Source: Devosia sp. MC521
GTDB lineage: Bacteria > Pseudomonadota > Alphaproteobacteria > Rhizobiales > Devosiaceae
DNA: 64,000 nucleotides
NCBI RefSeq assembly: GCF_014127105.1
Contig: NZ_CP059902.1
Coordinates: forward strand, 467,001-531,000
Reading direction: 5' to 3'
Shown: positions 12,414 to 16,586 of the stretch, one piece after another
Layout: the number at the start of each line of letters is the position of its first letter
Numbering within the stretch: position 1 is the first letter of the stretch
Notes under the pieces: model-generated
Told to the model about the DNA's origin: nothing
Seen by the model: the letters and a program-made list of their open reading frames with translations, nothing else
The model's database searches: none
Made by a program: the position numbers and the translations under genes

Positions 12414-13292
12414 TTGTCCTCAGGCGGGAACGGGCCTAAAACCCCCGCAACCATGCCGGCTTATTCCAGAAGTTACAGTGATGATCTGGAGCTGCTCCGC
12501 TCCACTGCGGTCGCAGCGGGCCTCATTGCGTCCAGCTTTTTCCGTCGTGATATAAAGACTTGGACCAAAGAGAACTCCTCCCCAGTCAGCGAAGCCGACA
12601 TAATGGTCGATCGCTTCTTGGCCGCGAACCTGTTGCAGGCGCGCCCCGACTACGGCTGGCTCTCTGAGGAAACCGTCGACAATCCTAGCCGTCTCGATAG
12701 CGCCCGCTGCTTTGTGGTTGATCCCATTGATGGCACACGCGCTTTCCTGCGCGGCGAGGAATATTGGACCATTTCCATTGCGGTGGTGGAACACGGCGTT
12801 CCTGTCGCCGGCGTTGTCTATGCCCCAGCGCTCGACGAAATGTATGACGCTGTTAAAGGCGGTGGCGCGCGCATGAACGCCCGCCCATTGCAGCGCAGCC
12901 GCCGTGCGGGCGCTTTGCCGATGATCCCTGCGCCCGGTGCAGTTCATCAGGAAATTCAAGCCACTGGCCTCGATTACACGCGCGGCCCTGCTTATCCATC
13001 CTTGGCTTACCGCCTTGTGCAGGTCGCCACCGGTCGCCTGGACGCCGCTGTTTCGCGCCGCGGATCGCAAGATTGGGATATTGCCGCAGCCGCGCTAATC
13101 CTGAGCGAAGCGGGGATGGATTTTGCCGATGTCTGCCTTGGCTACCCCCAATTTAACAAACGAGATGTGCGTCACGGGGCTCTTGCGGCCCTCTCGGACA
13201 TCAGCCTAAAACCAGTTATCCACGCTGCCCTGATCAAGGTTTATGGTTGTCCAGAACCGCAGGGTTGCGAAACTGACCAACAACCAACCTGA
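12414..13292 (+). CDS. cysQ: Inositol monophosphatase-family 3'(2'),5'-bisphosphate nucleotidase
   Basis: Predicted Mg-dependent phosphatase that removes the 3' phosphate of PAP, a by-product of sulfate assimilation; inositol phosphate is an alternative substrate. Metal-site motifs are visible: WLSEE (83-87), DPIDGT (103-108) and WDIAAAALI near residue 220. Length (292) is a little over the family norm of 260-270. The listed start is a weak TTG; the ATG at 12453 (MPAYSRSYSDDL) would give a more typical N terminus, but neither has a convincing ribosome binding site. The DUF4170 gene follows 12 bases later, an order conserved in rhizobia. Confidence 0.85.
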   Translation: MSSGGNGPKTPATMPAYSRSYSDDLELLRSTAVAAGLIASSFFRRDIKTWTKENSSPVSEADIMVDRFLAANLLQARPDYGWLSEETVDNPSRLDSARCFVVDPIDGTRAFLRGEEYWTISIAVVEHGVPVAGVVYAPALDEMYDAVKGGGARMNARPLQRSRRAGALPMIPAPGAVHQEIQATGLDYTRGPAYPSLAYRLVQVATGRLDAAVSRRGSQDWDIAAAALILSEAGMDFADVCLGYPQFNKRDVRHGALAALSDISLKPVIHAALIKVYGCPEPQGCETDQQPT

Positions 13293-13304: not shown

Positions 13305-13544
13305 ATGGCTGCTACACCGGATCAGCAACTCCTCCACCTCGTTATTGGTGGCGAACTATCGAGCCTTGAGGGCGTGACCTTCACCGATCTCGATAAGGTG
13401 GATATTGTTGGCGTTTATCCCAATTACGCCGCTGCCTATGCGGTTTGGAAGCAGAAGGCACAGATGACCGTTGATAGCGCGCAGACGCGCTACTTCATTG
13501 TTCACCTGCACCGCCTGCTCAACCCAGAGCAAACTGGTCAGTAA
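13305..13544 (+). CDS. DUF4170 family protein
   Basis: 79-residue soluble protein matching DUF4170, a small alphaproteobacterial family of unknown function. Recognisable parts are LHLVIGGEL, VGVYPNYAAAYAVWKQKAQ and the end RYFIVHLHRLL. It lies 12 bases after the cysQ-like gene, so the two are probably one transcript. In rhizobia, as I recall, the next genes are waaA and lpxK on the same strand; here the neighbour is a different gene on the opposite strand. Confidence 0.82.
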   Translation: MAATPDQQLLHLVIGGELSSLEGVTFTDLDKVDIVGVYPNYAAAYAVWKQKAQMTVDSAQTRYFIVHLHRLLNPEQTGQ

Positions 13545-13547
13545 GAA

Positions 13548-14702
13548 CTAAGTCTTTGAAACTCCAAGTGAATTTAATATGGCCGTCAGGGCTCCTTGGC
13601 CGCCAATATTGTTTTGGCCAATGGCCCCGAGACGCATCCGCAACTCTGGGTTGCCGATCAGCCGGATAATGGCCGAGCCGAGTTGGTCGACATCTGCGTC
13701 CACCACAAGACGGGCATCGCCGAAAAGCTTTTGCTCATCTTCAAAGCGTGAACGCCGATCCCTTTGATTGATAAAGGTAATCGCAGGCTTGCCTAGGCCC
13801 AGCGATTGGATCGTGGCAGTCCCGGCCTGGCTCAGAACAAAGTCCGACGTGGCCAAGAGATTGCCCATCGCCCGGCCACGCGCCATATGCACGGTGATGT
13901 CACCATCGGTCAGTTGCCCGAGGTCATCGGGTTCCGAGCTTAAGTGATGCGAGCGTTGCAGACCGGCCGCTTTTGCCAGTTCGTCAATCTGCACACTACC
14001 GGCAACAGCGAGGAAAATATCCGGCATCAGCTCCGGCACAACCTGCCGCAAGCCGTTGATTTGCAGCGCGAAACTTTCAGCGGTGAGGGCGCGGCTGCCG
14101 GGCAGCAGGGTCACCGCCAAAGCGCTGCGTCGACGCGATGCCGCGTCATAGGATCCGTGCGGAATGGTATCCATCATCAGATTGCCGGGAGCGGAGGCAT
14201 TAACGCCATCCTCGCGCAACATCGCAGAAAGGTTTTCGGCGCGGCAGAACACGAGGCTACACGCCTTGGCAATGGCCTTGCGTTCAAGGCCCGAATAGAG
14301 CCGCGCCGCGCCCGTTTTATAAACGTCGATATAGACCAAGTCGCGATAGCCGGTCACGAGGCCAGCCAGCACGCCCACCATGTCTCCGACCACGATGACG
14401 CGATCATAGTTCCCGCGCATTTTTCGCAGGAATTTCAATGCTGGTGGAACGGTGAGCAGACCGCCGTTGACGATATCGCGGCGCAGTGAGCCCTTCACAT
14501 TGCGCCAGCCTTCAGAGGCCAGCGACGCGCGTGGGCCAACGACGCGGCAGATGCCGTCATAAGCCTTGCCGCTGCCAATCATAGGATAAGCATCCGCCTC
14601 AATCGAGGAGGGAAACTGGGAAATCACCTGCGCGGCAATAGCGTCTTCGCCATGCCCGTTTGAGATGATGAGGAAGCGCTGACGCGTCGCTGCCTCGCTC
14701 AA
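13548..14702 (-). CDS. Lipid-A-disaccharide-synthase-related glycosyltransferase (TIGR03492-like)
   Basis: GT-B type protein of about 384 residues. SNGHGEDAIAAQVI near the N terminus, a conserved RRDIVNGGLLTV stretch, GDMVGVLAG, LLPGSR at the start of the second domain and SQAGTATIQSLGLGKPAI agree with the LpxB-related family first described in cyanobacteria and Deinococcus, function unknown. The frame extends to 14777 (ATG) and 14753 (ATG), overlapping DUF2093 by up to 74 bases. A TTG at 14702, one base after the DUF2093 stop and 8 bases after GGCCGAGG, looks like a coupled start and is chosen here. The acceptor is probably a lipid, which is inference. Confidence 0.72.
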   Translation of the reverse strand: MSEAATRQRFLIISNGHGEDAIAAQVISQFPSSIEADAYPMIGSGKAYDGICRVVGPRASLASEGWRNVKGSLRRDIVNGGLLTVPPALKFLRKMRGNYDRVIVVGDMVGVLAGLVTGYRDLVYIDVYKTGAARLYSGLERKAIAKACSLVFCRAENLSAMLREDGVNASAPGNLMMDTIPHGSYDAASRRRSALAVTLLPGSRALTAESFALQINGLRQVVPELMPDIFLAVAGSVQIDELAKAAGLQRSHHLSSEPDDLGQLTDGDITVHMARGRAMGNLLATSDFVLSQAGTATIQSLGLGKPAITFINQRDRRSRFEDEQKLFGDARLVVDADVDQLGSAIIRLIGNPELRMRLGAIGQNNIGGQGALTAILNSLGVSKT

Positions 14703-14703
14703 C

Positions 14704-14925
14704 TCAATTGCCTCGGCCGAAACGTTCAAACGCCTCAGTGGCCGCTGCAGCATCGGCGTAAGCTTCCTGCCGATCAACGCTCCAATAGTGCAATTCGTCG
14801 AGCGGAATGGTCTTGCCGGTTATGGCGCAGCGCACGAAAGTGCCTGACTTAATAAGCTTATAGTCGCCATCACCATAAAGCAGGGTCGCTTCGCTCGGCG
14901 TGAAGCCTTTTTCGAAGATGTTCAT
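14704..14925 (-). CDS. DUF2093 family protein
   Basis: 73-residue protein matching DUF2093, a small alphaproteobacterial family of unknown function usually next to lpxK or xseA. Visible features are LLYGDGDY, a single Cys in FVRCAITGK, and HYWSVDRQEAYADAAAA. It lies between xseA (47 bases upstream) and the LpxB-like gene, whose probable TTG start follows its TGA by one base. A ribosome binding site GGAGGT lies at about 14931-14936. The three minus-strand genes probably form one operon. Confidence 0.85.
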   Translation of the reverse strand: MNIFEKGFTPSEATLLYGDGDYKLIKSGTFVRCAITGKTIPLDELHYWSVDRQEAYADAAAATEAFERFGRGN

Positions 14926-14972: not shown

Positions 14973-16586
14973 TCAAAAGAGGCTTTCCTGCCCGCCCCCA
15001 TCAGGATTACGCGATGGTTTGCGTTTCGCTGGTGGCGCGCCGGAAACCGTAGCGTTCAAATCGCCATCAACGAAAGTGAGCTTGAGACTATCCCCAGGTT
15101 TAGCCCCAGTTTTGCTGGTCACAATCTGCCCGGCCTCATCTTGCACCAAGGCATAGCCACGCGCCAAAACATTCCGATAGCTCAATGTTTCCAGCAGCTT
15201 GGTCAGCTGATCGACCTGCTGGCGGCGCCCTTGGGTCAGTTGTGCGGCGGTTATGTCGAGGCGCTTTTCCAGTGGCGCCAAAAGACTCTGGGCCTGACGT
15301 AAATCGGCCCGCAACGGCTGTGGCGATAGGCGTGGCAAAACCCGTGCGAGTGCTGTGTGTTTGCGCTCAAATGCGGTTCGCGCTGCGTCCGGCAAACGCC
15401 GGGCGCGCGGATCATAGGTGAGGCGTGCGCGCTCAACCGATTTCATCAGTCCGCCTTCAGCGTGGCGGCCAAGGTTTTTGAGGCGATCGCTCAGTTCGCT
15501 ATGGCGTTGGCGAATAATGCGCGGCTGCAATGCCCCCGACGCTGTGCCAAAGGCCATGCGGCGCGACTGCACGAAATGTCGAAGCGCACCAGAGAGTTGG
15601 CTCGATGCCAGATCCAGAGACTGTCGCTGGTTTGAAATCAAATCGCTGGCGCGGGGCAGCCCCGCCGAGGCGGCGCGGAGGCGATCCTTGAGCGAGAGCA
15701 ACATGCGCCGCGCGGCCTGCCGCTGACGCCCGCCGTGGTCATCAACATAGGCAATCAGTTCGGCCCGAACCGGCACAGCGGCTTCCGCTGCAGCCGTTGG
15801 CGTGGGCGCCCGCATGTCCGAGGCATAGTCGACAAGTGTCGTATCGGTCTCGTGGCCGACAGCGGTAATAACGGGAATGTCGGAGCCCGCGACCGCGCGC
15901 ACAACCGCTTCTTCGTTAAAGCCCCAAAGATCTTCAATCGAGCCGCCCCCGCGGGCGACGATGAGCAGATCTGGCCTTGGGATAGCGCCGCCCGGTTCGA
16001 GGGCGTTAAACCCTTCAATCGCATTGACAACTTCTGGCGCGCTGGTTTCCCCCTGAACGCGCACGGGCCACACCAGCACATGGCTGGGGAAGCGGTCATC
16101 GAGGCGGTGCAAAATATCGCGGATCACCGCGCCGGTCGGTGATGTGATCACACCGATAACGCGCGGCAGATAGGGCAGGGGGCGCTTGCGCTCGCGCGCG
16201 AACAGCCCTTCTGCCAAAAGCTTTTTGCGGCGTTCTTCCAAGAGCGCCATCAGCGCGCCAGCACCAGCCGGTTCGATATTCTCGATAACGATCTGATACT
16301 TAGAAGAACGCGGGAAGGTCGTCAGGCGACCCGTCGCGATAATCTCAAGCCCTTCTTGTGGCTTGAAGCTGAGCTTGGAAAAGCTCCCCTTCCAGATCAC
16401 AGCGTCAATCGTCGCGCCTTCATCCTTAAGGGTGAAATAGGCGTGACCCGAGGAATGTTGGCCCCGGAAGCCGGAGATTTCACCGCGCACGCGGACATGA
16501 CCGAACTCGTCCTCGACCGACCGCTTTACCGCGTGGGCGATCTCGGTGACGGTAAACTCGGATGCATTGGTCAGAACCTGAGACAT
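14973..16586 (-). CDS. xseA: Exodeoxyribonuclease VII large subunit
   Basis: Large subunit of the single-strand-specific exonuclease involved in repair and recombination. The 537-residue protein starts with an OB-fold (VRGEISGFRGQHSSGHAYF), followed by the catalytic domain with GVITSPTGAVIRDI, RGGGSIEDLWGFNEE and GHETDTTLVDYASD. A long coiled-coil follows (about 290-460), then a C-terminal strand with ARGYALVQ. The end is Pro/Gly-rich (PPAKRKPSRNPDGGG). The small subunit xseB is not in this window. It heads the xseA-DUF2093-glycosyltransferase group. Confidence 0.95.
   Translation of the reverse strand: MSQVLTNASEFTVTEIAHAVKRSVEDEFGHVRVRGEISGFRGQHSSGHAYFTLKDEGATIDAVIWKGSFSKLSFKPQEGLEIIATGRLTTFPRSSKYQIVIENIEPAGAGALMALLEERRKKLLAEGLFARERKRPLPYLPRVIGVITSPTGAVIRDILHRLDDRFPSHVLVWPVRVQGETSAPEVVNAIEGFNALEPGGAIPRPDLLIVARGGGSIEDLWGFNEEAVVRAVAGSDIPVITAVGHETDTTLVDYASDMRAPTPTAAAEAAVPVRAELIAYVDDHGGRQRQAARRMLLSLKDRLRAASAGLPRASDLISNQRQSLDLASSQLSGALRHFVQSRRMAFGTASGALQPRIIRQRHSELSDRLKNLGRHAEGGLMKSVERARLTYDPRARRLPDAARTAFERKHTALARVLPRLSPQPLRADLRQAQSLLAPLEKRLDITAAQLTQGRRQQVDQLTKLLETLSYRNVLARGYALVQDEAGQIVTSKTGAKPGDSLKLTFVDGDLNATVSGAPPAKRKPSRNPDGGGQESLF

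Follow-up and report, generated by a model that had tools for sequence, protein, structure and literature searches.

A TIGR03492-type glycosyltransferase in the waaA-lpxK slot of Devosia sp. MC521 and an apparently Kdo-free lipid A gene set in Devosiaceae

The window, a stretch of 64,000 nucleotides from Devosia sp. MC521 (contig NZ_CP059902.1, positions 467,001 to 531,000), carries a gene for a TIGR03492-type glycosyltransferase (GT) at the place where related families of the order keep waaA and lpxK. The host genome has the gene set of the Kdo-free lipid A pathway type, lpxACDB without lpxK, waaA and kdsA, and GT and WaaA were found together in none of 101 genomes of the family Devosiaceae. 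We put at about even the chance that GT starts the LPS core in the place of Kdo, by attaching the first core sugar to lipid A that has neither Kdo nor a 4'-phosphate. The features of the window relevant to this proposal are as follows.

12414..13292, plus strand: inositol-monophosphatase family (IMPase/CysQ-like) gene, left neighbour of the slot (PF00459, 144 bits)
13305..13544, plus strand: DUF4170 gene, convergent with GT, marking one edge of the ancestral waaA-lpxK slot (PF13773, 72.9 bits)
13548..14702, minus strand: TIGR03492-type GT-B glycosyltransferase (GT), 384 aa (TIGR03492, 165.5 bits; AlphaFold2 pLDDT 90.8; GT-B structural neighbours)
14704..14925, minus strand: DUF2093 gene, upstream of GT on the same strand (PF09866, 82 bits)
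14973..16586, minus strand: xseA, exodeoxyribonuclease VII large subunit, right neighbour of the slot (TIGR00237, 448.9 bits)

The interval 13548-14925 consists of two minus-strand genes, DUF2093 and an intact GT, whose likely TTG start, assigned by choice, lies one base past the DUF2093 stop. The CysQ-like gene at 12414-13292 matched TIGR01331 with 119.7 bits, below the cut-off of 228.8 for that model. xseA served as the synteny anchor in the slot comparison. The host genome is a single contig of 3.78 Mb and 99.94 % complete.

Ten genomes from ten other families of the order, drawn from 79 WaaA-positive genomes and read around the WaaA match, were compared with this locus. All ten contained a DUF4170-DUF374-waaA-lpxK run towards a convergent DUF2093 gene, with CysQ seen in eight loci and xseA in three, and the order around waaA and lpxK that the preliminary description gave for rhizobia is therefore correct. 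The window slot has the same borders; DUF374-waaA-lpxK is gone and GT has been added on the DUF2093 strand. Among the order loci, L004, L006 and others have WaaA inside open frames of approximately 690 aa; the frame at L004 also matches the DUF374 protein that some Devosiaceae encode next to DUF4170, and looks like a fusion of DUF374 with WaaA.

Profile searches of the host genome placed LpxA, LpxC, LpxD and FabZ over their equivalog cut-offs, and an lpxD-fabZ-lpxA-lpxB cluster is present. The host LpxB passed the Pfam LpxB cut-off and scored below that of TIGR00215 (178.9 vs 190.25 bits). No match to waaA (PF04413), lpxK, kdsA or lpxI was obtained in the whole 3.78-Mb genome. Since lpxA, lpxC, lpxD and lpxB are kept while waaA, lpxK, kdsA and lpxI are unmatched, lipid A is not replaced; what is missing is the Kdo and 4'-kinase half of the pathway. 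The preliminary description had noted the absence of waaA and lpxK from the slot, which now extends to the whole genome and to kdsA, and a search for a complete lpx/waaA set elsewhere in the genome found none. Its suggestion that Kdo/lipid A assembly may have been replaced fits the missing Kdo and 4'-kinase genes but not lipid A itself.

Total loss of lipid A was ruled out at the level of the family as well, as LpxC and LpxB were each found in 100 of the 101 Devosiaceae genomes, the one exception for LpxB being a genome 71 % complete. LpxK did not exceed its cut-off in any of the 101 genomes, three matches with scores of approximately 20 bits staying below it. WaaA was present in 13 genomes and KdsA in the same 13, and GT was present in 67 (E 1e-15). 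LpxI occurs in 56 of the 101 genomes and in 13 of the 16 genera of the family; within the window's genus (g1) it was unmatched in the host and in 35 of the 40 genomes sampled.

The absence of any overlap between GT and WaaA gives a hypergeometric p of 1.1e-7 if the genomes are taken as independent, which, being related, they are not. A quick XseA+CysQ tree was made of 96 family genomes, 65 with GT, 13 with Kdo genes and 18 with neither; some of its branches are long, including those of G003 and G032. The Kdo state takes 3 changes on this tree, against 10 for the GT state and 6 for the state with neither. Since the genomes are related and the Kdo state needs only these 3 changes, the exclusion amounts to approximately three independent events and not to 101.

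Neither GT nor WaaA was found in 21 of the 101 genomes, a count made at E 1e-15, at which a very diverged GT in those genomes could escape, and in 16 of the 91 genomes with at least 90 % completeness and at most 5 % contamination. All 21 carry lpxC, so the step proposed for GT is not universally needed. In the order sample waaA was found in 79 of 101 genomes and an over-cut-off lpxK also in 79 of 101. Outside the family 18 of 97 order genomes are without WaaA, in families such as f5, f14, f22, f36 and f38 (G104, G113, G121, G135, G137), and 17 of these are also without an over-cut-off LpxK (G106 has one). A full-length TIGR03492 match was found in none of the 18; 18 weak matches in the order search (E > 1e-9, partial; that of G010 lies inside its LpxB) were left uncounted as GTs. 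Going by these 17 order genomes, the loss of Kdo would therefore not require GT.

xseA was found in 96 of the 101 family genomes, and the five without an xseA match (G008, G031, G048, G065 and G077) are outside the slot comparison and the tree. The slot was complete from DUF2093 to DUF4170 in 82 of the 96, the other 14 being cut by contig ends or missing a border match. GT alone occupied 46 of the complete slots, GT with DUF374 13, a Kdo island 6 and DUF374 alone 1; the remaining 16 had no recognised gene, i.e. no tblastn match to the query set used, in gaps of 22-1207 bases. The Kdo island comprises KdsA, KdsB, KdsD, WaaA and an ArnT/PMT-type gene. Its proteins were annotated in one genome, G032, whose island (locus L070) also encodes an LpxL-type acyltransferase and an O-antigen-ligase-type protein. 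In six more Kdo-positive genomes (G038, G047, G066, G071, G073, G075) the slot is cut by a contig end or split, and the pieces fit an island there. The slot is not the only place for Kdo genes, since the thirteenth Kdo-positive genome, G003, has only DUF374 in it and KdsA on another contig.

GT matched TIGR03492 over model positions 1-392 of 396 (NCBIfam profile search, E 1.5e-48), which agrees with the earlier assignment of an LpxB-related, TIGR03492-like glycosyltransferase to the slot on the opposite strand. Running the model, as had been proposed, thus gave a full-length match, but its 165.5 bits remain below the curated cut-off of 219.2, a cut-off passed in none of the 101 Devosiaceae genomes. 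In the Pfam search GT matched no family, and neither PF02684 nor TIGR00215 (LpxB; E 0.001) nor PF04413 was matched in the Pfam and NCBIfam searches. A weak profile match to LpxB (5w8s, E 0.0018) covers a stretch with an LPGSR motif. An alignment of 42 GT sequences, at least nine of them over the TIGR03492 cut-off, has 26 invariant positions, among them N15, G16, G18 and E19, and the N-terminal SNGHGED-type motif of the relatives is present in GT.

The AlphaFold2 model built on this alignment is confident (pLDDT 90.8, pTM 0.88). Its Foldseek neighbours are GT-B nucleotide-sugar enzymes, among them MurG, UDP-GlcNAc 2-epimerases and LpxB (5w8n, 5w8x), none of them close, with TM by query length of 0.35-0.59 among the 50 matches listed. 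The two predicted Rossmann-like domains and the UDP-sugar-enzyme neighbours of the model identify GT as a predicted GT-B glycosyltransferase. A replacement of LpxB by GT was ruled out since a separate LpxB is encoded in the genome.

GT is conserved within the family, as its presence in 67 of the 101 genomes shows. The dN/dS values of the window GT against seven relatives were 0.15-0.27, rough ratios because dS exceeded 1 in all seven pairs, and GT was matched in 40 of the 40 genomes of g1. In one of these, G099 (locus L228; a one-contig genome), it is split into two frames as two adjacent pieces, through decay or sequencing error. Two genomes of genus g7, G006 and G018 (L092, L093), carry GT in two tandem copies. 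D. riboflavina also has GT (locus L145).

A scan of genome contigs yielded 348 relatives of GT. Among the best 80, 64 were 42-82 % identical and came mostly from contigs titled Devosia, and 16 were 31-34 % identical and belonged to other groups, by which a restriction of the family to cyanobacteria and Deinococcus was ruled out. Ten of the 16 were scanned against NCBIfam; all ten matched TIGR03492, nine of them over the cut-off. Within flanks of at most 6 kb a side, several much shorter, LptF/G was found near 9 of the 16 distant loci, LpxB near 5, a second LpxB-like gene near 10 and none of these near 5. Some flank queries were taken from L180, L186, L188 and L189, and these loci match by construction. 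Pfam families at L188 were LpxB, an ABC exporter, an LptA-like protein and LptF/G, and those at L186 and L189 LptF/G and an ABC exporter. The second, weakly LpxB-like protein is a repeated neighbour of TIGR03492 genes, at 10 of the 16 loci (L180, L186, L188 and L189 included), and was met in Bacillota, Deltaproteobacteria and Alphaproteobacteria.

The same flank queries found neither LptF/G nor LpxB in ten rhizobial waaA loci, where ABC exporters were matched in four and LptB-like ABC proteins in two. A tblastn search of the 16 distant stretches with alphaproteobacterial WaaA, LpxK, KdsA, KdsB and KdsD queries found none of these genes. In the rhizobial controls the WaaA and LpxK queries matched at all ten loci, while the Kds queries were without a positive control. 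Negativicutes and Halanaerobiales are described in one source as having lpx clusters that include lpxK, waaA and kdsABCD (PMC5007114).

In the control genome of S. elongatus LpxC, LpxB and TIGR03492 were matched and WaaA and LpxK were not, whereas in the control Deinobacterium TIGR03492 was matched and LpxC and LpxB were not. The KdsA profile was matched in nine controls including S. elongatus, four of them over the cut-off, with S. elongatus perhaps below it. DR_1225 of Deinococcus is presumably a TIGR03492 member too. The preliminary description had linked the family to cyanobacteria and Deinococcus; S. elongatus and Deinobacterium do match, but the family is wider and reaches other phyla, its carriers including Bacillota, Aminicenantes and Paracoccaceae. 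Taken as a whole, the observation made there is confirmed and its interpretation partly supported.

In the mechanism that we propose, LpxB would make the acylated glucosamine disaccharide, to which neither a 4'-phosphate nor Kdo would be added. GT, acting in the cytoplasm, would then glycosylate the free 6' or 4' hydroxyl of this disaccharide from a nucleotide donor, the sugar probably being a hexose or hexuronic acid, and the product would be exported via MsbA and Lpt. The GT step would be the one that cyanobacteria need for a Kdo-free, phosphate-free LPS. The lpx gene content of the host, the slot and the fact that GT never accompanies WaaA or KdsA in the 101 genomes argue for this proposal, as does the frequent position of distant GT relatives beside lpx and lpt genes. 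By analogy, the lipid A reported for Synechococcus, whose 6' position, the usual site of Kdo, bears glucose and whose 4' position bears GalA (PMC4515613), is the kind of product that might be expected.

Several results speak against a core-sugar function of GT: the 21 lpxC-carrying family genomes with neither GT nor WaaA, the 17 of 97 order genomes that are without WaaA, over-cut-off LpxK and full-length GT, the presence of S. elongatus among the controls matching the KdsA profile, the 5 of 16 distant loci with no LPS gene nearby, and Deinobacterium, which indicates that the family can act on another lipid. Transfer of the substrate by homology is also weak, because the Devosiaceae GTs branch far from the other members and score below the TIGR03492 cut-off.

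The main rival explanation, which we regard as rather unlikely, is that GT makes a separate membrane glycolipid compensating for a truncated LPS and leaves lipid A untouched, the product being, for example, a phosphoglycolipid like that of Deinococcus or a diacylglycerol with a glycosyl or glucuronosyl group. Such an activity would suit Deinobacterium, with its TIGR03492 protein and no LpxC or LpxB match, and would be in line with the large glycolipid of Devosia nitraria reported as unidentified (PMC5644702). Against it stand the relatives of GT near LpxB, MsbA-like and LptF/G genes in several phyla, the mutual exclusion of GT and Kdo genes in the Devosiaceae sample, and the weak relationship of GT to LpxB.

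It is quite improbable that GT is a passenger, i.e. that waaA-lpxK was lost for unrelated reasons and GT came to lie in the gap by chance with a function unconnected with the lost genes. The 16 of 82 slots without a recognised gene and genome G035, in which the slot has no recognised gene and GT lies elsewhere in the genome, speak for a passenger; however, the Kdo island fills the same slot in the WaaA-positive, GT-less genomes of genus g12, and the retention of GT throughout g1 (split in G099) together with a dN/dS well below 1 argues against this view. An action of GT at the disaccharide-forming stage, bypassing the missing LpxI/LpxK and giving a modified or longer lipid A backbone, e.g. with a third sugar, is likewise quite improbable: LpxI is indeed unmatched in the host and most of its genus, and TIGR03492 is described as LpxB-related and lies beside LpxB and the second LpxB-like protein in Bacillota, but LpxB is present in every family genome except the incomplete one, GT-less genomes manage, and LpxI presence does not track GT absence, several genomes (G002, G004, G005) having both.

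The history of the slot can be outlined from the trees and from protein identities. WaaA of four islands was 27-33 % identical to ten outgroup WaaA proteins, which are 42-54 % identical among themselves, and the Kdo island was therefore probably acquired from outside. In the GT tree a single branch (100/100) unites the 26 Devosiaceae-type GTs and sets them apart from the 16 relatives belonging to other groups. Four of those 16 are alphaproteobacterial; three of the four cluster and one stands alone. The simplest history would be an ancestral loss of waaA-lpxK and kdsA followed by gain of GT in the gap, after which a few lineages would have swapped GT for the foreign Kdo island and others lost it without replacement, e.g. 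most sampled genomes of g16.

A broader view, which we offer tentatively and hold to be possible though doubtful, is that cyanobacteria, some lpx-bearing Bacillota and other phyla share a widespread LPS route independent of Kdo, in which TIGR03492-type enzymes are the transferases that initiate the core. Devosiaceae would have switched to this route after the loss of waaA-lpxK and kdsA, and individual lineages would later have lost GT at one conserved locus or replaced it there by a Kdo island gained through horizontal transfer. If the proposal is true, an alphaproteobacterial family lives on LPS that is made with no canonical 4'-kinase and in most cases with no Kdo, the natural exchange at one locus indicates the substituting enzyme, and a definite candidate is at hand for the enzyme that adds the first core sugar in cyanobacteria and in other bacteria whose pathway ends with lpxACDB. 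The data suggest that Devosia-type bacteria build their outer surface by a different route. Searches of the open part of PubMed Central turned up nothing on Kdo loss in Devosia, on TIGR03492 or on a locus alternating between GT, a Kdo island and nothing recognised.

GT can be compared with three enzyme systems. It shares with TIGR03492 ('lipid-A-disaccharide synthase-related protein', NCBIfam hypoth_equivalog) a whole-length profile match and the 26 invariant positions, and differs in its score below the cut-off and in the separate branch of the 26 Devosiaceae-type sequences. With LpxB (GT19, lipid-A-disaccharide synthase) it has in common the predicted GT-B fold and the weak 5w8s match, whereas it matches no LpxB family and a true LpxB is encoded separately in the same genome. 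WaaA/KdtA with LpxK, which add Kdo to lipid IVA, take the same genomic slot as GT, which would act at the same stage, when the lipid A disaccharide receives its first core sugar; unlike WaaA, GT has no PF04413 match, and the host genome has no KdsA match.

At the level of the pathway, Kdo-free lipid A is already known from cyanobacteria, for which Opiyo et al. (PMC3087551) report lpxA, lpxC, lpxD and lpxB only. The predicted Kdo-free lipid A of Devosiaceae is apparently secondary, as it looks like a loss within an alphaproteobacterial order. With the Kdo-free, phosphate-free LPS of cyanobacteria it shares the lpxACDB set, as far as tested, and a TIGR03492 protein, as found in the S. elongatus control.
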